Shown here: piece by piece, positions 35,901 through 55,469 of the stretch | Layout: each line of letters opens with the position of its first letter | How positions within the stretch are numbered: the stretch's first letter is position 1 | Virus record (IMG/VR): IMGVR_UViG_3300032271_000676 | Location: 1-55,469 of that record | DNA: 55,469 bases | Strand: one strand, 5' to 3' | From: a virus | Position numbers and translations under genes: made by a program | The notes under the pieces: generated by a model | The model's database searches: none | The model's input: only the letters and a program-made list of their open reading frames with translations | What the model was told of the DNA's origin: nothing

Positions 35901-38024
35901 GCCAAGCTGAAAATGAATATTACGTTCCTTGTCTCTCAACTGTTGAGCCATAGGATCATAATAGGATTCAGCAGGCATCGATCTCAATTGTTCTTTGATT
36001 TGTTTTAACTCGTTAAAAAGCCCTTGCGCTTTTAATTCTTGCGCCTTTTGATGTTCTTGATTTATTCGTTCTTGTTCTGCTGCTATTTCTGCGTCTGTTT
36101 TTCTATATCCTCTATTTTTACCAGCCTGATGCCAATCCGATTGCAACTCTTCAAGATGCAACAGCTTCTCATTGTTTGGCCCTGTGCGATCTTTTAACCG
36201 CATGTGGGCTATAATGTTAGGTACGCCAAAATGAGAAGAATTAAAGTTGTTTAAAGAATTCATGCGATCGCGTGGAAGATGCAGCAACATCTCGCGGTAG
36301 TTCTCTCCACCGGGTAGCGTGTACTCTGAGTACTGCGGCTGGTCAGCCATGTCACGGTCCATGATGTTTTCACGGGCTACATCTTCCGCATGGTCCCATC
36401 TCATCGCCCCGCCATTTCCATGATCTCTATTGAAGATTTCATTGGCAAGTTCCCTAACCTCATCTTCATCTGGCTCACTATGCTTCAAGATCCGCTCTTG
36501 TATCTGTGGCGCTTGGCGCACCTGCAGCTCACGTAGCATCTGCTCCTTAGTCAACTTGGGGTGCGCTGCTAGTGCCGTCAGCCCTCGATCCTCTAACTCA
36601 TCCTTTTTGACGTTAGGCTGCTTCATAAGCTCATTGACGAACGCCTGTCCGGGACCTTCTTTACGCTTGATGTTCTGTGCGCCCTGATCAACTGCGGAAA
36701 ACAATCCACCCTTTGCCATCTTATGAATGCCTCCACCGGCAGCATAGCTCTCTGCTTTGCCATACTTAGGTCTATATGCCAACACCAACGGGCCAACTTG
36801 CAATACATGTTCTGCATGCGTCACAGGCTTCATGGTCTTACGGTCATAAAAGTATCCATGCCGACGAGGGTCGTAACCAATCTGAGCAAAGTCAGGGTGG
36901 TTAAGATACTTTCTCATATGCTCCACGGCTTCCTCTTCACCCATGTGGTGCAGCTCGCCTTTAATACGCGCAAATGGCGCTTTGCTTTGATCCCCGGTCG
37001 CAACTCTAATTGCTTTCTCAGGGTGCGGATCAAAGTGTGCATTCATAACTGCGGATACCGGGCCATATGCTGTAGGAAACTTACCCTCGCTTCCATGTTC
37101 ATCGTGAATTGAATTGACCCACACTCCGTGGTGCTCATACGCTGGGATATCTAACCGCAAACCAACCTTGCGACCCGCAGGCCACTTCTCAGCTGCTCTC
37201 CACCCAGCCTGCTTATTGGCCATCAGCGCACGTTTAGCATCCTCATCTGTCGCAGGCTTGGGAATAAACTCATAGGGATGTACAGGCTTTTCTTGATGCG
37301 CTATAGCGTCATACTCTTCTTTGGTTATTTTGCCTTCTACATATGCCTTAGCGGCCTTTTGGATCTCAGGATGGATACGCTGTAGGTTGGGGTCGTAATG
37401 TGTCGGCTTGACTTCAGGCTGGCCGCCGTCTTTATACACCTCTGGCAATCGAGCTGGGGATCGCGTCTTACCCGCCAGCGTATTCTGTGGGGTGACATGA
37501 GGCGATAAGCTTCCTACCCTGTTCCGAATCGCTTCCAAGTATTCTTCCTGACTATTTACTTTAGGCATGTCTTGCCATTCCGCATTCAATCTTACTAGTG
37601 CAGAATCAACGCCACTTTTGGCCAGCGCTCGGCTGCGATGGCGCCCCTCATGGCCTGATATGTGTGGCAAACTGTATTTATGCCCAGCATACATGTCTAA
37701 TTCAGGCACGCTATCAAACCCGCCCTCTATGCCTTGTAGATGCTTTATGTATTGATTGAATGGCATCATATTGTGCTCGCGGTCATAACGCGACCCACCC
37801 CGGATGTTTGGCATCGGCGTAGAATACTGCTCAAAGTTCTTAGGATCCATTGTCATCACCACACGGTGCTGACCTTCTGGAGCAAATGCACGCTTCAATG
37901 CGTCCAATGTATACATGTCTTCTAACTTGGGGATCTCATCGGCTGCGCGTTGCACACGCTTGCCACCATAATCACCCTGCAGTTGACGTATAAACTCTTC
38001 TAACTCTTTTAGTTTACTGGGCAT
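32910..38024 (-). CDS. giant polyvalent virion protein between terminase and portal
   Basis: 1704 residues, multidomain. N-terminal ~170: ParB-like/binding module with GHEGRHRSRAL. About 230-440: a domain with VGLRLDIPAY and RRHGYFYDRKTMKPVTHAEH, a pattern of large polyvalent protein-associated domains. About 600-960: LHLEELQSDWHQAGKNRGY then GPFKNNWHEMALKHLIHHAA and YDLSKKIGRI, again polyvalent. About 1220-1330: a Cys cluster CPGQTEGCGGG and GTCFAPNAESQYVNASVRRA resembling gp88-like phage proteins. The C-terminus has an NGEYVVDA module and a HHHK tail. Short GG linkers (YAAGG, MAKGG, YATGG, KDGG) separate domains. Its size and place suggest it is packaged and delivered with the DNA. Activity unknown. 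Confidence 0.65.
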   Translation of the reverse strand: MPSKLKELEEFIRQLQGDYGGKRVQRAADEIPKLEDMYTLDALKRAFAPEGQHRVVMTMDPKNFEQYSTPMPNIRGGSRYDREHNMMPFNQYIKHLQGIEGGFDSVPELDMYAGHKYSLPHISGHEGRHRSRALAKSGVDSALVRLNAEWQDMPKVNSQEEYLEAIRNRVGSLSPHVTPQNTLAGKTRSPARLPEVYKDGGQPEVKPTHYDPNLQRIHPEIQKAAKAYVEGKITKEEYDAIAHQEKPVHPYEFIPKPATDEDAKRALMANKQAGWRAAEKWPAGRKVGLRLDIPAYEHHGVWVNSIHDEHGSEGKFPTAYGPVSAVMNAHFDPHPEKAIRVATGDQSKAPFARIKGELHHMGEEEAVEHMRKYLNHPDFAQIGYDPRRHGYFYDRKTMKPVTHAEHVLQVGPLVLAYRPKYGKAESYAAGGGIHKMAKGGLFSAVDQGAQNIKRKEGPGQAFVNELMKQPNVKKDELEDRGLTALAAHPKLTKEQMLRELQVRQAPQIQERILKHSEPDEDEVRELANEIFNRDHGNGGAMRWDHAEDVARENIMDRDMADQPQYSEYTLPGGENYREMLLHLPRDRMNSLNNFNSSHFGVPNIIAHMRLKDRTGPNNEKLLHLEELQSDWHQAGKNRGYRKTDAEIAAEQERINQEHQKAQELKAQGLFNELKQIKEQLRSMPAESYYDPMAQQLRDKERNIHFQLGRMDAQEPPKLENIGILNGPFKNNWHEMALKHLIHHAAKNGYQGIVVTPGQEQAKRYDLSKKIGRITHMDFGNPDKGNLHAFDHDERLILEKTDLPNSELPNYIGKEAAQKLLNQKLNENGWRELSGLDLQVGGEGMHEFYDKKVPNTLNKLGKRYGVQAGVTQIPVFNQTAQKGWQNIFQTQSGMDEASAKAEAELREPSVYKTVHHFPITEEMRKDVTTHGLPMYATGGSVQTAHDLLLHHIGSPEYREQMKHLRYLEELMEHMASGGSAKPAGIQEELDRLKAKMQQETALYNQYIKEHQQTDTKDLPTYESWKQRIPSTGVVKLKDGGQVESKQPKEYEETENPTRVKFHGIGSGGVRSIVVPRHMWEGKRYAGEGPKAGENVDGMREVNKARAEIYGSEPRPPLNLGQITKIHKAALDEHFAKPLEEQRAAEQQALQRLKAAKHIGHDSDTLDSSEKLDTVNNEHGENGKTFSAKASKGVAGYALYTSGHGDNQQFYILNACPGQTEGCGGGVDENGTVDTSKGTCFAPNAESQYVNASVRRASHAQAKHDPAMTNDWILAHTGSLRKAVEAADRANKNFLFRPNVVDESDRTSRIAIAKLNQQRQQFNKNELSAVNEKRAKKRQKPLDELSNVIMNSYGKAGELHDPENGIFSTFSNIGPKVKNGMAIRENINRDQARVGETIRAQTGFSRGQGKDFMNEQGHLTPPKNSYMVTNVKRYSPMDEAMQRAFTHAKYWSAPRAVSHGEGMGSDLTPAELQEGPEGHFDGEGKPTTEDKAHYGHKTIGNLRFDYQRQHIIPPRQIEIKERVKVPVLDKDGNPKKVGKKTVYKSDSNGKPLMQEVTHHIASDSRFLDNNYFPPAQERYRSKNGKIAGGILLTTPTTSTSHVGHHTTFTHHVGEEDIAHAMQNNGEYVVDAPEKQIAAMGKQYAQPQEVKIMRKAEGGSVSAPSSPYHEEEDLPEDHIAFPSQYSEAMVHLMTRSQHHHKVHKKAR

Positions 38025-39408
38025 ATGGGTTACCTCGCGTCTTCATAAGGTCGTAAGTATCGTCCCAGTCATCTTCCTTGGGCGCACGGTTGATCTCTAG
38101 CCAGCCAGTGTCTTTCAAGTACCGTAGCGCCTGTACCGCAGCGTCCATCAAATCGTCGTGGCTGCATTGCGGAAAGGAACACATTTGGCTTACTAAGGGC
38201 TCCGCCCAGTCTCGCACAAAACCCTTACGATTACCAGATTCTGGCATCCATACGCGGCCTGCAGCGATTACAGTTGCGGCAATGTGTAGGCGCTGGAGCT
38301 TGTCAGCTCTGCCCGGATTCCAACCGACCACCGGCAGATGCATGCGTCGCAGCTCCTGCAGCAGCGAGATACCCGCCGCCTTTTCCTCGATAACAATCAG
38401 ATCACACCGCTTCTGCTTCTTACCTGAACCGTAGCTAGTCTCCCATTCATCAAGTACTCGCGGCTTCAGATCTGGGAAGCTTAATCGTTCCTGCCAGCAA
38501 TCCAGCAGCAATACTGCTAATGGACCATCGAGCGGCTGAAAGATCCCCCATGTGGTGCAGGCAGTATAGTCATTGGTTTGCTTTTCGCCATAAGCGCAGT
38601 CATAGCTTGTAATAACAAACTGCAGCTCCTCTGGAAATGGTTTGTGGTTAGGCCACAGCTTGATCCACTCACGCTTTACAACGCCACCTTCCTCGGCGTC
38701 CAATATCTCGGCATGGATCTCTTGACGGCCTAGCTTAGTTTGCTCGTACTGTAAAATCTGCTCCCGGAATGTTGGAGACAGGTTATCAATGTTGGCATAC
38801 GTAGATGCACGATCCACGACAGTGGTCGGCGTTTCAATGATCTTGATCAGCAGGTCGCGAGGCTTAGGTGTAGTCGTTACAATTATGCGCGGGCTCTTGC
38901 CGAGGCGGAGGCCAAACATCATCATGTTCCAACAGTCTTCATCGCGCTGTATTGCAGCCAGCTCGTCTACCCATACCCAGCTGGTGTTCAAGCCCCGCAA
39001 ACGTTCTGGGTTCTCCGCGCTGACCGCACGTATCTGACTACCGTTCTTCAGATATATGATCATATCTGTCTTGTTGTAGTCCTCAATTAAAAATTCAGGA
39101 CATACCGCGAGCACCCCGCTCTCGCCTTCTATGCAAGTCAGCCTGCAGTCATTCGCAGTAGGAGCAATTATCAAACACCGGCTCTTCGGGTAAGTCCATG
39201 CCCACCACCACAATTGCTCCGCTCCAGAACGACTTTTGCCAGCCCCCCGACCCGCTATCAGCGCCCAGACCAAGTAGTCCTGCTCCATCGGTGGCGGTAC
39301 TTGATGCTTCTTCGCTCGGCTTAACCATTGGTACCTCGCTGCGTATGCGATGCGATCCAAATCTGCTAGTTCATCCTGCGTGTCCTGCAGTATCTCTAGC
39401 GCGCTCAT
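38014..39408 (-). CDS. terL: terminase large subunit
   Basis: 464 residues. ATPase and nuclease that packages DNA into the prohead. Walker A AGRGAGKS at 52-59; Walker B WVWVDEL with Asp148 and Glu149; coupling motif TTTPKPRD near 178-185. RNase H-like nuclease: Asp270 in SYDCAYGE, acidic Glu341/342 in IEEKAAG, and HDD at 417-419. Start overlaps the small subunit stop (ATGA) and its end overlaps the polyvalent gene by 11 bases. Sequence divergence does not allow a packaging mechanism to be read, but the circular permutation of the contig fits headful packaging. Confidence 0.95.
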   Translation of the reverse strand: MSALEILQDTQDELADLDRIAYAARYQWLSRAKKHQVPPPMEQDYLVWALIAGRGAGKSRSGAEQLWWWAWTYPKSRCLIIAPTANDCRLTCIEGESGVLAVCPEFLIEDYNKTDMIIYLKNGSQIRAVSAENPERLRGLNTSWVWVDELAAIQRDEDCWNMMMFGLRLGKSPRIIVTTTPKPRDLLIKIIETPTTVVDRASTYANIDNLSPTFREQILQYEQTKLGRQEIHAEILDAEEGGVVKREWIKLWPNHKPFPEELQFVITSYDCAYGEKQTNDYTACTTWGIFQPLDGPLAVLLLDCWQERLSFPDLKPRVLDEWETSYGSGKKQKRCDLIVIEEKAAGISLLQELRRMHLPVVGWNPGRADKLQRLHIAATVIAAGRVWMPESGNRKGFVRDWAEPLVSQMCSFPQCSHDDLMDAAVQALRYLKDTGWLEINRAPKEDDWDDTYDLMKTRGNPYAQ

Positions 39409-39839
39409 ATCTCACCAGAGCGTATGCGCATCTCCAGATTAGTAAGTGCGGTTTGTATGGCCACCTTGATTGGCTGACCATCAGGCCCGCTGTATTCCGT
39501 CTTGTTTTCTACCTTGGTGACATGCAACCCTGCTGCTTTAGCACGACCCATCTCAGCCGTTATGGCTGCGTTGATGTTACCCATCTGCACGGCTTGATCT
39601 CTGAGCCACTCCATTACGTCTAAATGGGCTCTGAGCGTCAGCTGAACGTCCTCTACAGCAGGCGCTCTAAGCTCTTCGATCCTTGCCGTGATCTTGACGT
39701 TATCCATGACTTCTTTTGCCTTACGATGAACGCTCTCTGGTTTCATCTTTTCAGCATTGTAAGCCTGACGATAAGCTTCACTAGCATTGCCACATTCGAC
39801 GTATGCAAGGCAAAACTTCTCCTGTTTTTCCGTCAGCAT
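39405..39839 (-). CDS. terS: terminase small subunit
   Basis: 144 residues. N-terminal DNA-binding domain of the Terminase_2 type: LTEKQEKFCLAYVECGNASE, then AYRQAYNAEKMKPESVHRKA and VKITARIEEL. A helical oligomerisation region follows. It recognises the packaging site and loads the large subunit. Located directly upstream of terL with a 4-base overlap. Confidence 0.88.
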   Translation of the reverse strand: MLTEKQEKFCLAYVECGNASEAYRQAYNAEKMKPESVHRKAKEVMDNVKITARIEELRAPAVEDVQLTLRAHLDVMEWLRDQAVQMGNINAAITAEMGRAKAAGLHVTKVENKTEYSGPDGQPIKVAIQTALTNLEMRIRSGEI

Positions 39840-39916: not shown

Positions 39917-40207
39917 TTACTCACCATGCATTCTTTCATTAGAGTATGTAAACGTTGCCGTGTTGCCATCAACTTCTATTAATACATCCCAAGTTTTCTT
40001 GCACCAAGCACATACCACGTAGTCAATCATATTGTGCAAATGTGATACATCATCATGGCCGCCTCTTACAGCAAGCGTTGTATCAGTATGGCCTGCAATA
40101 AAGTCACATTTATCTGGGATTTCGCAATCCGCGCAAGGATGTAAGTCCTCTGCATAAACTTTACAAACCGGTTCTCCATCGTGAGGTAATGCTGCTTGAC
40201 GTAACAT
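39917..40207 (-). CDS. small Zn-ribbon-like protein, first gene of the late operon
   Basis: 96 residues. Cys/His groups CADCEIPDKC, HTD, and CAWCKKTW suggest zinc binding. Ribosome-binding site AGGAGA is 6 bases upstream of ATG 40207. It is the first gene reading leftward from the structured divergent region, 77 bases before terS. Its early position could indicate a regulatory or packaging-accessory role; no family recognised. Confidence 0.55.
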   Translation of the reverse strand: MLRQAALPHDGEPVCKVYAEDLHPCADCEIPDKCDFIAGHTDTTLAVRGGHDDVSHLHNMIDYVVCAWCKKTWDVLIEVDGNTATFTYSNERMHGE

Positions 40208-40452
40208 TAAATTCTCCTAATCGTTATATTCCACCCCAAGGCCCCCCTACCCCCACAGCAGTGAGAGGGACTTGGGTTCCACCCGTCTATTGACGAACTC
40301 ACCAGTTATGTTGCCATAACCCCGCGCCGTGAGTACAAGGCCAGCGCCCGGACTTTAGGAATTGCACCTTAGCTTTCGCATACCGGTAGACTTTTCTTCC
40401 ACGCAGCCATCTCTAGCCCTTACTATCGAGTGGAGTCCGGTCTAACCAACAA

Positions 40453-40472: not shown

Positions 40473-40485
40473 CTCCCACAAAAAA

Positions 40486-40632
40486 AACCCCGTAAGCTTT
40501 AGGTGGGGCGGTTCCTTGGCGGGGAACAGACCGGGGCGCATTGAGTAGAAGATTTTTCTGCCTTTTGAGCAGGGAAACGCTTCCAGCCTACACACCCCAC
40601 CTAAAATTTACGGGGTTATTTACTTCTACTCA
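40486..40632 (-). promoter_or_regulatory. interleaved inverted repeats A-B-A'-B' with T run: candidate pseudoknot or conditional terminator
   Basis: Arm A (40486-40508) and arm A' (40595-40617) are 23 bases each and complementary at 21 positions. Arm B TGAGTAGAAG (40542-40551) and arm B' CTTCTACTCA (40623-40632) are perfectly complementary over 10 bases. The order is interleaved, so both stems together form a pseudoknot, or they compete. Read leftward, arm A is followed at once by a T run (40487-40480), as in an intrinsic terminator, and late genes start 270 bases further on. The RNA role is inference; the repeats are directly visible. Confidence 0.65.
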
Positions 40633-40686
40633 GCACACTGACCGGCCAAGGTCAGACACATTTATTTTCACACTTACACAAAATGT

Positions 40687-40715
40687 TTGCAAGATGGCAA
40701 AATGTCCTGTATCGT
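40687..40715 (+). promoter_or_regulatory. early promoter P1, sigma-70-like
   Basis: TTGCAA at 40687-40692, 17-base spacer, TATCGT at 40710-40715. The same -35, spacer (15 of 17 bases) and -10 recur at 41395-41423. It drives the 221-frame region starting at ATG 40758. Confidence 0.75.
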
Positions 40716-40757
40716 TCTTCCCATGCAGTACCAATCAATAGCGAAAAGGAGCGAATC

Positions 40758-41394: not shown

Positions 41395-41423
41395 TTGCAA
41401 GATGACAAAACGTCCTGTATCGT
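41395..41423 (+). promoter_or_regulatory. early promoter P2, near-copy of P1
   Basis: TTGCAA at 41395-41400, 17-base spacer, TATCGT at 41418-41423. Almost the same 30 bases as P1, 708 bases apart, suggesting duplication of the promoter. Drives the gene starting at 41474. Confidence 0.75.
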
Positions 41424-41473
41424 TCTCTACATGCACTAACGTTAAGTGCCTAACAGCGAAAAGGATAGCGAAA

Positions 41474-41852: not shown

Positions 41853-41868
41853 GGGGGCTACGGCCCCC
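41853..41868 (+). other. stable intergenic hairpin
   Basis: GGGGGC-TACG-GCCCCC with a C(UACG)G-type extra-stable loop, 7 bases after a stop codon and just before the next ribosome-binding leader. No T run follows, so it is more likely an mRNA end protector or pause than a terminator. Confidence 0.6.
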
Positions 41869-41890
41869 AATAGCGAAAAGGAGCGACAAA

Positions 41891-46279: not shown

Positions 46280-46505
46280 TTAAAAGTTGGCGCTCCAATG
46301 GGCTAATCCAGTGCGTCCTTTGCTCATAGTGTTGGCAGATTCTGATGCTAGGGAGTTTGGCAAATCGCTCTCGCTTCCAACAATGTTCCCACCATCCTTT
46401 TTTACCTGTCCAATGGACGCAATTGTTGCAGTTCGGTTTAACATCGGGGATATCCAGTTTTCCCGGCCCAAAGCGCGAACGCTTTGTATAAATTTCATAA
46501 GACAT
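46089..46505 (-). CDS. Cys/Trp-rich protein overprinted on primase and RusA genes
   Basis: 138 residues from ATG 46505 with AGGA upstream. Residues 24-58 (NCNNCVHWTGKKGWWEHCWK, then SIRICQHYE) have a four-Cys/His pattern typical of small phage zinc-binding proteins. The gene overlaps the primase end by 226 bases and RusA by 191, in a different frame, and spans their exact junction. The N-terminal half looks like a real protein, while the second half is less distinctive. It may be a genuine overprinted gene, or the primase tail may be the derived frame. Confidence 0.55.
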   Translation of the reverse strand: MSYEIYTKRSRFGPGKLDIPDVKPNCNNCVHWTGKKGWWEHCWKRERFAKLPSIRICQHYEQRTHWISPLERQLLNDPVRVTLPADNQHVLEVCDGPGIYQQERVVLPISSQMDADNITNDQKDQQSKWAVKSGLTSF

Positions 46506-47296
46506 ACAATTCCTGCCTTTTGATGAACATCATTAGCATCCCAGCCAATTTCCTCTGACATAGTCCAAGGCAAACCGGTGGCTCTTGCAGCATCCTCGCC
46601 AACGAACGACATATCATTATCCGCAAATACAAATCCAGACTTATCTTTTGCGACATAAACCAAATTTGCAGCTGAGAATGTAACCACCACGCTGTGATCA
46701 ATACGTAAGGTTTTAAGCGCTTCTGACAACGATAGGCCGGTTGCCCAACCCTCACAAAACCATTGCTCAGAACCACGACCAATTCGCGTTACAGCGCCCT
46801 TAGCACGCATGCCGGGTAAAAACTTTTTGTCGTAGGACCGCGTATCAGGATTCCACCAAATCTTTTGTAAACCTACCAATTTATTTGTTAAATGATTGCG
46901 CATGGGAATCATCGTAACCTCGTCGTTTACATGCGCTTTTATGTGTCCTAAACCCTTAAATTTAAGGTAGGGGCTTTCTCCCAATTCGCATATGCTCAAC
47001 ATTGCTGCAGCATTCTTTTCGGCCAGCGCGTACCCTTTCATGCGCTCCATACGCGCTGCCGTGCGCTTCGCTTCCCAATCAAGCTTTTCACGCTCAGTCC
47101 AAGGTGTATCAGACTCAAACCATTCGAGCTGATTACCATCATCCCAGCTCATGCACCAACCCTTACGCCCGTCCCAATAATATGCACCATTAGTTGACCT
47201 AGGCTTTTTTTCTGTAGGGCAGCGCTGGATCTTGTCAGACGCATGCAGATTGCGTATTAACAAACCTTTAACTCGTGCAAAATCCTCAAATGTCAT
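46280..47296 (-). CDS. Toprim-domain DNA primase-like protein
   Basis: 338 residues. N-terminal ~60 residues: substrate-binding region without a Cys4 zinc finger (DGRKGWCMSWDDGN). Toprim domain: WFCEGWATGLSLSEALKTL with Glu182, then GFVFADNDMSFVGEDAAR with Asp226 and Asp228, then GWDANDVHQKAG. Synthesises primers or acts on plasmid-like initiation, as in other phage Toprim primases. The last ~65 residues overlap the Cys-rich gene and look unlike the family, so they may be readthrough. Follows the helicase with 1-base overlap. Confidence 0.75.
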   Translation of the reverse strand: MTFEDFARVKGLLIRNLHASDKIQRCPTEKKPRSTNGAYYWDGRKGWCMSWDDGNQLEWFESDTPWTEREKLDWEAKRTAARMERMKGYALAEKNAAAMLSICELGESPYLKFKGLGHIKAHVNDEVTMIPMRNHLTNKLVGLQKIWWNPDTRSYDKKFLPGMRAKGAVTRIGRGSEQWFCEGWATGLSLSEALKTLRIDHSVVVTFSAANLVYVAKDKSGFVFADNDMSFVGEDAARATGLPWTMSEEIGWDANDVHQKAGIVCLMKFIQSVRALGRENWISPMLNRTATIASIGQVKKDGGNIVGSESDLPNSLASESANTMSKGRTGLAHWSANF

Positions 47297-48810
47297 TACG
47301 TTCTCCTTTTAGACCAGCGGATCGTTGCTCGTCGCGCTGTGTTTTCTACTCTACGACCTACCTCTACAAGCCGATCATTCTCATTGAAAATAAAATTGCT
47401 TGGCGGTGTGGCCTTCATCACATCTTGATATAAGTACCACGCACGTTGGCGTCGCGTATCTGGCTTACCCCATTGACGTACATAACTACAGCATTCATTC
47501 CATATGCCTCTGTCATGCGTAATCTTGGTGCTGGTAAGCTCAAGCTCTACCATCTTGCCCTCTAACTCTTCTATAAGAGCAGTACGCTTTTTTTCGTGGC
47601 CGCAGGACATGCATCGATTTGTATAAGGGCTAAACCCGCATTCAGGGCAAGCTCGTACAATATCTTCTTCCTCTTCTTTGTCGCGCGCTTCCTTGTCGAG
47701 CTTTTCGCCATGATCAAGCCCATCAAGGCCACTAAAAAATATGGTTTCAAAATCTTGCCTGAATCGCAAAATATTGCCACTATGGTCCAACAATACGCAG
47801 TTCTCTTTGCCCGGATAAGACCTTAAACCACGGCCCCACATTTGAATTGCTGTTGACAAGCTTTTGCGCAAGGGCCTGCAATCCGCAACACAGCCTACGT
47901 CTGGTACATCGAAACCTTTGGCCAACGCCTCTACGCTGACCAGTACTCTAATAGCACTGTTAGGCTTTCTAAACTCTTTTAAAAGCTCCTGCCGCTCTGC
48001 ATCCGGTGTATATGTACTGAATACAGCAGCCATGATGCCTTGCTCATTAAACCGGCGTGCAATTTCATTGCAGTGGTCTACTGTCGCACCGAAAATAATT
48101 GTTTTGCGGTCGCTTGCATACAAGATCCACGATTCGACCACATCACCTACTATTTCCTTACCTCTTGCTGCGGCCTCATTATCCGCCCATTCTCCACCAA
48201 CTTTTTTAGCGCCAGCCATATTTGGCTTAGTGCCAGAAAAGATTCGCATTGGGACCAGCACGCCCTGTTTAGTCAACTCAGACATTGTCGTTGCGTTGAT
48301 TAAGTTGCTAAACAAGTTACCTAGCCCAGCTGAAAACGGCGTAGCGGATAAACCTATTACTGCTGCCTTGCAGGTCGGAATATACTCAGTCCATGCTTTC
48401 ATCTGCGTATGGCATTCGTCAATCACTACTACGTCAACCAACGAAGGCCAACCACGACGGGCAATTGTTTGCGCACTAGCAATTTGGAACATGGCATGCG
48501 GCCTATGGCGCCAATGATTGGCCTGTATCACACCATGATCAATCAAACCATAACTGTCAGCCACTGCAGACGTTTGATTGATTAAGGTTTCGCGGTCGCA
48601 CAAAAAGATGCACCGCCTACCTTTGTCTAGCGCTTCTTTGATAATGCGCAAACCTAAGTAAGTTTTACCGGCGCCCGTAGGCGCCATAACCACTTGGTTT
48701 TTATGTCCACGGCGAGCGCCGTCACGTAATTGCTCATGCGCTCGCTTTTGAAACTCCCTTGGTTCAGGGAATTTAGTCTGAGGTGCTTCCACTTCGCTTA
48801 GGTTTTGCAT
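47296..48810 (-). CDS. SF2 DEAD/DEAH-type helicase with C-terminal zinc finger
   Basis: 504 residues from ATG 48810, chosen to limit overlap with the preceding gene (38 bases). Motif I MAPTGAGKT (42-50), motif II DECH (131-134), motif III SATP (155-158), motif V region SVEALAKGFDVPDVGC, motif VI QMWGRGLRS. C-terminal CPECGFSPYTNRCMSCGHEK is a four-Cys zinc finger, common in phage SF2 helicases. Probably the replicative or recombination helicase, working with the primase next to it. Confidence 0.85.
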   Translation of the reverse strand: MQNLSEVEAPQTKFPEPREFQKRAHEQLRDGARRGHKNQVVMAPTGAGKTYLGLRIIKEALDKGRRCIFLCDRETLINQTSAVADSYGLIDHGVIQANHWRHRPHAMFQIASAQTIARRGWPSLVDVVVIDECHTQMKAWTEYIPTCKAAVIGLSATPFSAGLGNLFSNLINATTMSELTKQGVLVPMRIFSGTKPNMAGAKKVGGEWADNEAAARGKEIVGDVVESWILYASDRKTIIFGATVDHCNEIARRFNEQGIMAAVFSTYTPDAERQELLKEFRKPNSAIRVLVSVEALAKGFDVPDVGCVADCRPLRKSLSTAIQMWGRGLRSYPGKENCVLLDHSGNILRFRQDFETIFFSGLDGLDHGEKLDKEARDKEEEEDIVRACPECGFSPYTNRCMSCGHEKKRTALIEELEGKMVELELTSTKITHDRGIWNECCSYVRQWGKPDTRRQRAWYLYQDVMKATPPSNFIFNENDRLVEVGRRVENTARRATIRWSKRRT

Positions 48811-49618
48811 TGTTCGCTCGTTGTAAATTTTTAACTTGTTTAATCGCCTCGTTCGCCATAGCCTCAAGACTGGCAATCCGACCTTCTTTTACGCGGTTCA
48901 GTTCTTGCGCCTGCTTGAGTTCTTTTAATAATACAGCATTGTGTTCGTCAGTTTCAATTACTTTACGCATCGAATCGTTTTCTTCTAATAACGATTCTGC
49001 ATGATGTTGTAATTCATTGATTCGATCTGATAATGCCACCACTTCATTTTTTAAATCATCTCGTTCTTTTTCCAATTTTTTAACATAATCACTCACACGC
49101 GGATCGGCAGCCTTGCCCTCAGGGCGAGGCTTAGGCGGATTCTTTGGCTTGCTCCCGCTTTCTAACTTTTTGACGCCTTCAAGTATTGCTTCACCATCTC
49201 CTGCTAACACTGCTGCTTTTGCGCGATTAATTGTGCGTTCGCTTACATCTGCCAGCTCTGCCATTTGCTTATTTGTAGCTACATCAGGATTGTCATGCAC
49301 ACCATTTGCCGCCCATTTATAAACTGATACGACTGCTACGGCACGCTGCGCATCCGTCATATCGCGACGATGATAATTTAACGACATAACAAATGCGCGT
49401 GGGTCTACATCCTCAGGCAAGTCTGTTACAGGTAATTGTTTAGGATCTAAACCAGCCATCATACTGGCCGTATAACGATGCCATCCGTCTATGATTTCGC
49501 CTTCATATAACGTTATCGGGTTAAGCACGCCATTTTGTTTTATATCCTCTGATAATGCATGTAACCGCTCTGCGTTATAGGATGGAAAAGCTTTGCTAAG
49601 TGGGTGTCTTGAATACAT
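48773..49618 (-). CDS. ParB/sulfiredoxin-fold protein with coiled coil
   Basis: 281 residues. ParB-like N-terminal domain with ALSEDIKQNGVLNPITLYEG and GEIIDGWHRYTASMMAG (about 40-56), then a helix-turn-helix (NKQMAELADVSERTINRAKA, 116-135), a PRPEGKA linker (164-170, palindromic repeat copy 3) and a coiled coil to the end (about 178-270). No ParA gene was found, so classical partition is unlikely. Such proteins in phages act as regulators or nucleases. Directly follows the Cro-like gene. Confidence 0.75.
   Translation of the reverse strand: MYSRHPLSKAFPSYNAERLHALSEDIKQNGVLNPITLYEGEIIDGWHRYTASMMAGLDPKQLPVTDLPEDVDPRAFVMSLNYHRRDMTDAQRAVAVVSVYKWAANGVHDNPDVATNKQMAELADVSERTINRAKAAVLAGDGEAILEGVKKLESGSKPKNPPKPRPEGKAADPRVSDYVKKLEKERDDLKNEVVALSDRINELQHHAESLLEENDSMRKVIETDEHNAVLLKELKQAQELNRVKEGRIASLEAMANEAIKQVKNLQRANNAKPKRSGSTSD
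49110..49129. repeat. 20-base palindromic interspersed repeat, copy 3
   Basis: Identical to copy 1 at 10616-10635. Encodes PRPEGKA in the linker between the DNA-binding and coiled-coil parts of the ParB-like protein. Confidence 0.8.
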
Positions 49619-52335: not shown

Positions 52336-54321
52336 TTAATGGAACATTCTGCTCAAATGATCACGCGCTCCACGCACTAATTGCGGTCCATATTCGTATG
52401 CAAGACCTCCTAAGCCTGCAAGACCACCAACCGTTGCTGCTGTAGCCTCCACCGGTGCAGCTGCTGCTGATAACCCTGCTGCTCCTATCCCCATAGCAGC
52501 AAGCTCTGCTGCGTTTGCAGCTGCCCCGCCATAACCCAGAGCCATTTGCGTATAGTCTCTATTTTTCCTGCCTTCTTCCCCCAGCGCATAATTTTCACCA
52601 ATCATAAACGGTGAAAGTTTTCCTGCTGCTTTTAAAACACCTTTTGCACCCGGTATCATGCCAACTGTGTCATGCACATATTGGTTTGCTTTGCCTAATG
52701 CATTAGCTGCAGTTCCCACAAAAGATGGAGCCGCTTGTTTTACTTGCGGTGTAACACCTGCTTTTAAACGTTCTGCTGATGCTTTTGCCCGCTCTTTAGC
52801 AGCATCTATAGCTGACTGTCCGCGCAATCGTTCCTGCGCATGCTGCGTTTCTAAATTAGTTTGATCTACCGTGTTGGCCAATTTAGTTCTATTCACTACG
52901 CTGTCATCGCCTGTAACTCGACCTAGTAATTTTTCCTGATCCGCTTTTGCTTTTGCTTTAGCGCCAAGGTAATCATTAACTACTTTTGCTTTTTGTACTT
53001 TATCTTCATTTGCTAAATCGGTAGGTTTGTATAAGGTTGGGCGATCTACTGATGAACTACTTGGTTCTAGTCCTGCGGCAAGCGACGGAAACGCTTCTTT
53101 GCGTGCAGCGGCTGCTTCAGTCCCTGCACCCATACCAACTTCTTTTGCTGCAGCCATACGTGCCGTATTCTCGTTATGTGAGATCTGACGTAATGACCCT
53201 TCATTTGCAAAACCTTGTGTCAACCCTTCGTCTGGGACAGCAACTTGCAACGGTGCAGTTATACGTTTACTAGGCTCAAGATAACCAGCATTAATTGCTT
53301 CTTCTTCATATGGTCTGAGATATTCATCATGTGCTAATTTTGCAGCTTTCTGTGCGTCTGCAGAAACCGTTTGAGCGTTATTTAAACGTTGTGCATTATT
53401 GACTTTAAGATCATTCATTTCTTGCAGTCGCTGCGCTTCTTGTTGATTGTGCATTTCTTGCGCATAGTTTAAATCGTATTGATTTTGTGTATGCGTTTTT
53501 TGCATTGCATCAAGTTCGTTTTGAAACTTAGCTTGTGCGGCTTTTTCCATCTGGGTTTTTATGCCCATTCCTGCGCCCATAGCCGTACCGGCTGCGGCTG
53601 CACCACCTAATAAATTTGCACCTAAATCAGACACACTTTGTTCTTGCCTTTCCGGTCGCGGTGCCGCAGGTGTTGTGCTCGGCAATTCTGGATCGCCGCT
53701 CTCTTCATACTTGGTTGAATACGGGTTAGACATATAATCTTCCCCGCCTTCATAAGCTGGCATGCGATATGTTTGTTTGCGCTCATTCCATACTGGACTT
53801 TCTTTTTGCTGAATGCGATCCAGTGGCATAGGATAAACACGGTTTACATCTTGAAAATAATCCTGAACATCTGCCGGAGCTTTTGTAACATCCAGCATGC
53901 CATTTTGATTTAAAAATGGACGCGACTCTGCGTTATCACCGTGCTTGTATTCAGTAACAATTTTCCACGGATCACCATTATGTTTTTTATCCAGATCGTG
54001 TAAATGCAAAACAAATGCAGTGAGATTATGATCAGTATCGTTAAGACGCGCTTGCATAGGATCTGGGAACGCTTCTGGATGCTGATTTACTACCGATGCA
54101 AATGTGGCAGGCTGCATCTGCGCAGGGCCGCTTGCCCGACTTCCTTCCATAGGTGTAGCACCAGTACCAAATTTATTTTCGGTCCACAACAACCCATGAC
54201 CTAAATGTTTCATTTCATCAGACAAACCATATTCATCAGCTTTGTCTAAATAATCGCTCGCAATCTTATATTGATTGTCATCTAAGTCATACGCTTCATT
54301 ACCATTGGCATCGATGTGCAT
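52336..54321 (-). CDS. internal virion transglycosylase-like ejection protein
   Basis: 661 residues. N-terminal lytic transglycosylase domain: helix, catalytic-type Glu48 in LLWTENKFG, then SRASGPAQMQPATF (61-74), the family's GxxQxxP segment. It opens peptidoglycan locally during DNA entry. The middle (about 200-530) is Ala/Gln/Glu coiled coil. The C-terminus has Ala/Gly-rich zipper helices (YGGAAANAAELAAMGIGAAG, then AATVGGLAGLGGLAYEYG) that may enter membrane. This plan matches podoviral channel proteins. Last gene of the late operon, preceded by AAAGG. Confidence 0.75.
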   Translation of the reverse strand: MHIDANGNEAYDLDDNQYKIASDYLDKADEYGLSDEMKHLGHGLLWTENKFGTGATPMEGSRASGPAQMQPATFASVVNQHPEAFPDPMQARLNDTDHNLTAFVLHLHDLDKKHNGDPWKIVTEYKHGDNAESRPFLNQNGMLDVTKAPADVQDYFQDVNRVYPMPLDRIQQKESPVWNERKQTYRMPAYEGGEDYMSNPYSTKYEESGDPELPSTTPAAPRPERQEQSVSDLGANLLGGAAAAGTAMGAGMGIKTQMEKAAQAKFQNELDAMQKTHTQNQYDLNYAQEMHNQQEAQRLQEMNDLKVNNAQRLNNAQTVSADAQKAAKLAHDEYLRPYEEEAINAGYLEPSKRITAPLQVAVPDEGLTQGFANEGSLRQISHNENTARMAAAKEVGMGAGTEAAAARKEAFPSLAAGLEPSSSSVDRPTLYKPTDLANEDKVQKAKVVNDYLGAKAKAKADQEKLLGRVTGDDSVVNRTKLANTVDQTNLETQHAQERLRGQSAIDAAKERAKASAERLKAGVTPQVKQAAPSFVGTAANALGKANQYVHDTVGMIPGAKGVLKAAGKLSPFMIGENYALGEEGRKNRDYTQMALGYGGAAANAAELAAMGIGAAGLSAAAAPVEATAATVGGLAGLGGLAYEYGPQLVRGARDHLSRMFH

Positions 54322-54330
54322 ATTTGACCT

Positions 54331-55469
54331 TTATTGTGGAGATGCGCCAAATACCTGACTTGCACGCAAACGTGTTTTCGGTGGCTTGGCTCCTAATGGA
54401 GGCACTACAGTAGGTTCTACGGATGCGGCCGGAACATTACCTAACACAGAATCTGCTGTTGCAACCCCTCTGGGTCGCTTATGAGGAACATTTGTTCCGC
54501 CTGCGGTAACTCTAGAGCCAACGTTACCTGTACCCATTTGAGTGTCTACTGCAGCAGATTTATTAGTTAACAATTCATTCAAACGTTTGCTTTCATTTTG
54601 AATGTCTTCTGAATATTTATCTGCACGCGGTTTTACGGAAGCAAAAAAATCGTTCATAGACATAGCAGGATTTTGTCTACGCGCATCAGATATATGTTTG
54701 TTAAGATCAGTCACATAATTTATATGATGCAACATCTGCTGCGATTTTGATGCAGCAACATCACCCATATCCGAAGGCATAGGCATAGCTCCGGCCGATA
54801 TCATTTGACGCTCTACCGATGTGTTTGGCCCTTCTTTTCCATAAGCCCCTTCAGCATTCTGCCGGGCTCTGTAAATTTCACCCAACTCAGAATAATAATT
54901 CATCAACTTTTTCTTATCTTCAGTATTGATGCCATACTTTGTCTTATCATCACCACTAGCCATACCAGCTAATTTTGCCATAGCATTGGCCCAGTCTGAC
55001 GAACTCAAATTGCCACGCCCGTCAATTGCTTTAGCAAATAAATCAGTAATTCCCGCCCCTTTGCCAAAGTCCAAAATGTGTTGGTTGTTTGGATCTTCCG
55101 CAAAAGCTTTTACGTTTCTAATGTGCGGTTCCATTTGATATGCTGCTTGTACGCCTTTACCATATGAATTTGCTAATCCGCTCATAGAGGATACATTAGC
55201 GTCGTATTGTGCTTTTAATGCATTTTGTTGCGCCATACCCATACGACCCAAAGGCGTATCACCCATCGCTGCATAGCGTGCAGCCAAATTGGGATCATAC
55301 TCAGTCGCACCCATGCCTCCGCCCGGCGTAATATCCATCATGCCCTGCTTATTGCCAGTTAATAACTGATTCTGCGCAATCTGTGCTTTTTTGCTGCAAG
55401 CATATCCACGGTTTTCAACTGGGCCATAGTCATAGGTATGAGCTGTTGGCGCTGGGTATCTTGGTACGA
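54331..55469 (-). CDS. internal virion (ejection-type) protein, C-terminal part; gene crosses the contig junction
   Basis: Continuation of the gene that starts at base 565. In this copy the frame is unbroken from about 55385 downward. Upstream of that a missing T shifts it, so an automatic caller would wrongly start at an internal Met (55341). Taken from the left copy, the protein is 510 residues. The C-terminal half is rich in charged helices and ends in a Pro/Lys/Ala-rich tail. The next gene (start 54321) follows the stop by 9 bases with AAAGG as its ribosome-binding site. Ejection-protein role inferred from neighbours. Confidence 0.85.
   Translation of the reverse strand, partial: VPRYPAPTAHTYDYGPVENRGYACSKKAQIAQNQLLTGNKQGMMDITPGGGMGATEYDPNLAARYAAMGDTPLGRMGMAQQNALKAQYDANVSSMSGLANSYGKGVQAAYQMEPHIRNVKAFAEDPNNQHILDFGKGAGITDLFAKAIDGRGNLSSSDWANAMAKLAGMASGDDKTKYGINTEDKKKLMNYYSELGEIYRARQNAEGAYGKEGPNTSVERQMISAGAMPMPSDMGDVAASKSQQMLHHINYVTDLNKHISDARRQNPAMSMNDFFASVKPRADKYSEDIQNESKRLNELLTNKSAAVDTQMGTGNVGSRVTAGGTNVPHKRPRGVATADSVLGNVPAASVEPTVVPPLGAKPPKTRLRASQVFGASPQ
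55299..55469. repeat. right copy of terminal overlap, with probable end errors
   Basis: Right-hand counterpart of bases 1-172. All differences lie in the last ~83 bases, including a one-base loss in a T run near 55387-55392 that would frameshift the gene crossing the junction. The trimmed genome would be about 55,298 bp. Confidence 0.93.

Follow-up and report, generated by a model that had tools for sequence, protein, structure and literature searches.

Crossed inverted repeats as a predicted attenuator ahead of an apparently undescribed structured phage RNA

We propose that the interleaved inverted repeats upstream of the late operon of a phage contig (the window, that is, the whole stretch of 55,469 nucleotides analysed here) act as a transcription attenuator ahead of a new structured phage RNA, a reading built on sequence comparison that we hold to be probable rather than secure. 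The attenuator reading is well supported by conservation. Attenuators are a known device, of which the repeats taken by themselves are a variant, and the RNA behind them seems, within the reach of the tools used, to form an undescribed class. On the minus strand, the elements of the putative switch follow each other in the order B'-A'-B-A-TTTTTTTT, behind a candidate promoter:

40664-40692, minus strand: candidate sigma70 promoter (-35 TTGCAA at 40687-40692, 17-nt spacer, -10 GAAAAT at 40664-40669)
40623-40647, minus strand: arm B', 5' strand of the predicted antiterminator helix, containing the 10-mer 40623-40632
40590-40617, minus strand: arm A', 5' strand of the predicted terminator hairpin (40595-40621 in the repeat search)
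40529-40551, minus strand: arm B, 3' strand of the predicted antiterminator helix (10-mer part 40542-40551)
40486-40512, minus strand: arm A, 3' strand of the predicted terminator hairpin (40482-40508 in the repeat search)
40480-40487, minus strand: T8 tract of the predicted intrinsic terminator (A8 on the plus strand)

The original prediction had described 23-nt arms A and A' (21 of 23 complementary, 86 nt apart), perfect 10-base arms B and B' crossing them in the order A-B-A'-B', and eight T at the last arm, and all of these were recovered. The 23-nt arms are the core of 27-nt arms that are 89% complementary with 86 nt between them in the repeat search, the B core pairs at 10 of 10 positions (40542-40551 with 40623-40632), and the A8 of the plus strand at 40480-40487 is T8 on the minus strand. 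Beyond what had been predicted, helix B extends past its 10-mer into arms of 25 and 23 nt with interruptions, giving ~21 pairs in the nascent-RNA fold and a duplex of -34 kcal/mol (shuffle p = 0.006), and a conserved structured RNA (40443-40228) lies directly 3' of the T-run. The minus strand from 40665 to 40472 folds at -72.3 kcal/mol, compared with -55.9 +/- 4.3 for shuffled sequences (z = -3.8; 0 of 200 shuffles folding as well), and the ~24 pairs of A'/A followed by U8 provide the intrinsic terminator that an attenuator calls for.

An attenuator also calls for alternative helices, and here the geometry is telling. Since only 5 nt join B' to A' in the window, A'/A should be unable to form while B'/B is closed, and since a strand of 0 to 6 nt is too short to bridge a helix longer than 20 pairs, the two full helices would be alternatives. 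An H-type pseudoknot of the full stems A and B was considered and is unlikely, with a 5-nt linker set against a ~24-pair stem. Thus, of the two outcomes that had been foreseen for the interleaved stems, the mutually exclusive switch, placed on the minus strand as an attenuator, is favored, and the stable full-stem pseudoknot is disfavored by the shortness of the B'-A' linker; a partial A/B pseudoknot may form.

The RNA downstream of the T-run came to light through a blastn comparison of the whole gap with terminase/portal relatives, in which 40230-40443 was 72% identical to the start of one of them, L168. There too the RNA comes before the gene that opens the corresponding operon, with different genes behind it and the terminase 4.5 kb further. 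The terminase/portal relatives differ in gene order and mostly have no such RNA (present in 1 of 75 loci, L168), so homologues were sought by DNA patterns made from the conserved blocks. A two-block pattern retrieved 74 viral contigs and a few cellular contigs; 11 pattern matches devoid of the other conserved blocks (chance or coding) were dropped and duplicates were removed, leaving 58 distinct phage or prophage sequences, window included. The cellular contigs belong to Comamonas, Herminiimonas, and Zeimonas; the known cellular carriers are, by record titles, betaproteobacterial. With strict filters, a survey of 399 genomes from one host order found the RNA in 1, which argues for a phage trait and not a host RNA.

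The Rfam search that had been suggested for the flagged region returned no family there at gathering or relaxed thresholds. At the gathering threshold, the 4227 Rfam models gave no match in the whole window or in 20 other members, and relaxed E-values gave chance matches only. Queries with the window and five other members against ~50,000 records of named phages and against plasmids yielded one chance match at most. We found no description of the RNA in the literature, subscription journals and preprints lying outside the search.

With this set at hand, the switch could be followed in other phages. With a terminator score of 40 or more as the definition, a strong intrinsic terminator stands immediately before the conserved RNA in 21 members, with arms of 22 to 32 nt and a T-run at A. 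Helix B was searched by pairing the 45 to 50 nt before A' with the A'-A stretch and comparing the duplex energy with shuffles of both; the crossed helix was individually significant (at 0.05) in 11 of these 21 members (Fisher p = 4e-12) and without individual significance in the other 10. In 15 of the 21, 0 to 6 nt separate B' from A'. Most of these members differ from one another almost wholly in the sequences of A and B, which argues for recurrence of the design and not retention of sequence, although the 21 are not all independent, a few being close kin (e.g., L266/L296 and L247/L311). L233, the member closest to the window, keeps both stems through compensating base changes. Relatives of the same gene order lacking both repeats or showing no compensatory change had been named as evidence that would count against the element; instead, the design recurs in other phages with compensatory and even wholesale sequence change. 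Many prophage-like members have no attenuator and carry the RNA directly after a coding gene, often a primase, so the switch is not essential to the RNA.

Folding with ViennaRNA, which ignores pseudoknots and kinetics, gave the same succession in all 15 members folded: B'/B pairs are present in the minimum free energy (MFE) fold of the transcript extending as far as arm A, and with A added the MFE structure becomes A'/A, with no B pair left. In full, the terminator state is lower by 13 to 29 kcal/mol, which is the cost when A is blocked. Because B'/B forms in these folds before A is made and A'/A after, we propose read-through first, with termination if B'/B is prevented. RNA polymerase would start near 40657 on the minus strand and copy the arms in the order B', A', B, A. 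As the RNA emerges, B' would pair with B first, enclosing A' in the loop. As long as B'/B is closed, the ~24-pair A'/A helix would be blocked and transcription would read through into 40443-40228 and the genes behind; if a putative factor prevented or opened B'/B, A'/A would form at U8 and transcription would stop near 40480. The direction of the default, the promoter, and the signal of the switch are, like the mutual exclusion itself, conjectural parts of this scheme; the repeats, the short linker, the recurrence in other phages, and the covariation of the downstream RNA are read directly from sequence.

A generic scanner found no minus-strand promoter in the window, and the same scanner missed the terminator, owing to its long loop. 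By itself, the promoter match of the window is weak (shuffle p 0.26); many of the 21 terminator-bearing members nevertheless have promoter-like sites before A' (combined p 5e-11). The predicted transcript start of the window lies near 40657. On the plus strand, a 44-bp near-repeat (86%) occupies 40687-40730 and 41395-41438, ahead of the two first rightward genes, and a further 19-bp copy of sequence near this repeat lies at 41868-41886. The first copy of the near-repeat holds the inverted repeat TTTGC-N6-GCAAA, whose overlap with the -35 of the putative leftward promoter makes a shared operator possible.

The same promoter-like site near 40660, together with the strong terminator at 40480 and the lack of any gene coded by the flagged region, would also suit a stand-alone trans-acting small RNA of ~170 nt ending at T8, with the downstream RNA started on its own. 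We consider this unlikely: little space is left between the T-run and the conserved RNA, where no promoter was seen, and the members do not share the primary sequence of the flagged region, whereas those of a typical trans-acting RNA family would.

Behind the predicted attenuator, the conserved RNA shows an elaborate predicted fold:

40228-40443, minus strand: conserved structured RNA domain of ~220 nt (covariance-model match 40397-40228, 111.9 bits)
40396-40435, minus strand: 5' domain P0, a CUCCAC ... GUGGAAG helix with an inner hairpin, seen by eye and outside the model scoring
40345-40386, minus strand: three-way junction P1/P2/P3, with the T-loop-like hairpin GGUGCAAUUCC at 40358-40368
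40294-40347, minus strand: pseudoknot P4 x P5, enclosing hairpin P6
40277-40284, minus strand: direct repeat, 5' copy GGGUGGAA
40242-40256, minus strand: G-rich strand GUGGGGGUAGGGGGG in the P8/P9 hairpin, for which the search pattern selected in part
40229-40236, minus strand: direct repeat, 3' copy GGGUGGAA

After P4, P5, and P6 come hairpin P7 and then the pyrimidine/G-rich hairpin P8/P9, an order read by eye and then from the model. A first MAFFT alignment of 15 rows, built without structure, had 82.5% of cells paired, compared with 68.5% when shuffled, and 69 double-change cells against 26, with P4 pairing in 85% and P5 in 92%. The covariance model recovers 47 of the 58 members at E 1e-8 or better, these E-values being rough and 15 of the members being its training rows. 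The model-fitted alignment (57 sequences, 28 pairs) has 86.8% of cells paired, compared with 59.8% in shuffles and at most 43% when slid, and counts 350 double-change cells against 107 in shuffles, pseudoknot included. In that alignment, P1, P2, and P3 pair in 96%, 94%, and 98% of cells, respectively, and P1 and P2 covary; P5 pairs in 90% with double changes in seven of seven pairs, and P4, although outside the model, pairs in 76% with double changes in four of five. These downstream helices covary as RNA, GU pairs included, which argues against a reading of the repeats as DNA, to which we return below.

The P3 loop, UGCAAYU, resembles a T-loop. The cobalamin riboswitch, which has a similar T-loop hairpin, was considered and rejected, RF00174 being unmatched at gathering or relaxed thresholds. 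A pattern lacking the G-run retrieved ten loci, of which nine have the G-run, and the tenth, L323, apparently keeps the P8/P9 hairpin with other bases, GUUAGGGG opposite CCUAAC. This divergent member (position 1052, minus strand) apparently lies, by eye, directly behind an HNH-like coding region.

At its 3' end, the RNA carries a pair of identical short segments, one on either side of P8/P9 and mostly 47 to 67 nt apart, in L233, L234, L245-L316, and other loci. Their sequence varies by member (GGGUGRA, GGUUGAU, GCGAUCCCC, GGCAGGAAC, CGAGGAACCA, UUGGAACCU, and more), and the two copies agree within a member, with a mean longest match of 6.8 nt compared with at most 5.5 in 2000 permutations; the repeats evidently co-evolve. 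Iterons, such as the P4-like example GGTGAACAG, were considered and set aside: nearly every locus has exactly two copies, not helically phased and with no complementary copy nearby, and a search of the loci for extra copies and complements found 15 against 18 expected, hence no excess. Tandem self-pairing of the repeats was rejected by eye. We know of no standard explanation for co-evolving identical direct repeats in RNA; as guesses, we can offer a trans partner common to both copies, alternative pairing, or an initiator protein.

The gene neighborhood suggests what the RNA may do. In the window, the genes concerned are as follows:

47296-48876, minus strand: SF2 helicase, upstream of the RNA
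46280-47296, minus strand: TOPRIM primase, upstream of the RNA
39917-40207, minus strand: first gene after the RNA, 96 amino acids, product unassigned
39405-39839, minus strand: TerS, after the 96-aa gene
38014-39408, minus strand: TerL, after TerS

A replication helicase or primase adjoins the RNA on the same strand (nearer gene at ~1.3 kb or less) in 32 of the 58 members, the remainder beyond those 32 being cut off or of unidentified neighborhood. An SF2 helicase and/or a TOPRIM primase stands directly upstream in 13 members, a primase-helicase downstream in 14, a DnaB-like protein (named from sequence) downstream in three, and an SF2 helicase downstream in two, all on the strand of the RNA. 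In the window and in L233, 6 to 7 kb separate the RNA from the helicase/primase, which is upstream of it and on the same strand, and the RNA is followed by the late operon. Being found behind or before replication genes, the RNA cannot be merely the cis leader of one fixed gene. A replication-linked role is probable and, as our best guess, fits the neighborhood best: the RNA would serve phage replication as a transcribed origin or primer RNA or as an RNA partner of replication proteins. Hence the earlier proposal that the element gates late transcription suits the layout of the window, where the RNA opens the late operon, and does not suit the class, which, where neighbors could be identified, sits mostly beside helicase/primase genes.

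Tentatively, then, this new class of phage RNA and the replicative helicase/primase would start DNA replication together, timed by an attenuator of mutually exclusive crossed helices. A more specific version, overlapping in confidence with the replication role, is a transcribed origin in which the attenuator would control a pre-primer RNA that, through its fold and G-rich 3' part, would give rise to an RNA-DNA hybrid priming phage DNA synthesis, and the switch would set timing or copy number. We regard it as possible, with reserve. The adjoining helicase or primase in at least 32 loci, behind or before and always on the same strand, the G-clusters on the RNA strand, and the two co-evolving direct repeats point to it; however, the GC skew of the window follows the gene strand and is uninformative about an origin, the repeats are only twofold and not helically phased, the replication genes are 6 to 7 kb away in the window and L233, and an origin would not require strict co-direction with them. 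The analogy is with the ColE1 RNA II pre-primer, whose RNA-DNA hybrid primes plasmid DNA synthesis; like it, the conserved RNA would be a structured, G-rich transcript with a possible tie to replication, a likeness of setting only.

The same map bears on the packaging site (cos/pac) that had also been suggested. With the small terminase gene ~0.6 kb away in the window, the repeats could act as DNA, for packaging by the terminase or as a protein-binding cruciform; nevertheless, most relatives with readable neighbors have replication genes and not terminase beside the unit, and arm A always has the T-run 3' of it in the RNA sense. With the covariation described above, this makes a DNA element very improbable and leaves the packaging claim unsupported.

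As an attenuator, the unit resembles trp-type leaders and pT181-type antisense-controlled attenuators, which switch between alternative antiterminator and terminator helices, in its mutually exclusive helices before an intrinsic terminator within a promoter-proximal leader. Unlike in these systems, the antiterminator strands in the window do not overlap the terminator strands, B'/B would exclude A'/A by enclosing A' with too short a linker, and the controlled product would include a conserved structured RNA. The lambda late leader (6S RNA, pR'-tR'), a short leader ending in a terminator, likewise lies upstream of a late operon; in contrast, a second helix is interleaved with the terminator of the window, most members lie elsewhere than at late operons, and no Q-like protein was identified in the window.

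Another phage RNA that heads an operon is HK022 put, ~70 nt with two stem-loops, which acts in cis near the promoter and antiterminates as RNA alone (PMC9378689). The conserved RNA could similarly be a processive antiterminator, with the attenuator gating entry to the long structural operon that it opens in the window and in L233/L168, and the terminator resistance that put confers with RNA alone lends this some appeal (PMC9378689). We find it doubtful: the ~220-nt RNA, with its T-loop-like junction, pseudoknot, and direct repeats, departs from the size and the two stem-loops by which put is described (PMC9378689), and in several members it precedes one or a few genes (primase/helicase) followed by genes on the opposite strand. 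GOLLD is a large structured noncoding phage RNA also found in metagenomes (PMC12286853). The conserved RNA shares this occurrence in phages and metagenomes but has no Rfam match to GOLLD and differs from it in size and setting.

The RNA that the predicted attenuator precedes is thus a widespread, strongly covarying phage RNA, with no Rfam or named-phage match, carried by dozens of diverse uncultured phages and linked in its setting to replication genes. Newly discovered RNAs with folds as complex as this one have often been recognized later as ribozymes, RNA-protein machines, or elaborate regulators. The 21 diverged copies of the switch offer a natural test set for attenuation by topological exclusion, and the Comamonas, Herminiimonas, and Zeimonas contigs offer entry points in culturable bacteria. 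If the replication role is true, the co-evolution of the direct repeats would speak for a mechanism of which we know no example in any RNA.

Elsewhere in the window, 52336-55341 (minus strand) encodes two large proteins, of 661 and 336 amino acids, with no Pfam or PHROGs match. In L002 (1-704), whose large terminase is 65% identical, a coding gene stands upstream of TerS in place of the RNA unit, and by eye its product looks like a member of the PAPS-reductase family.
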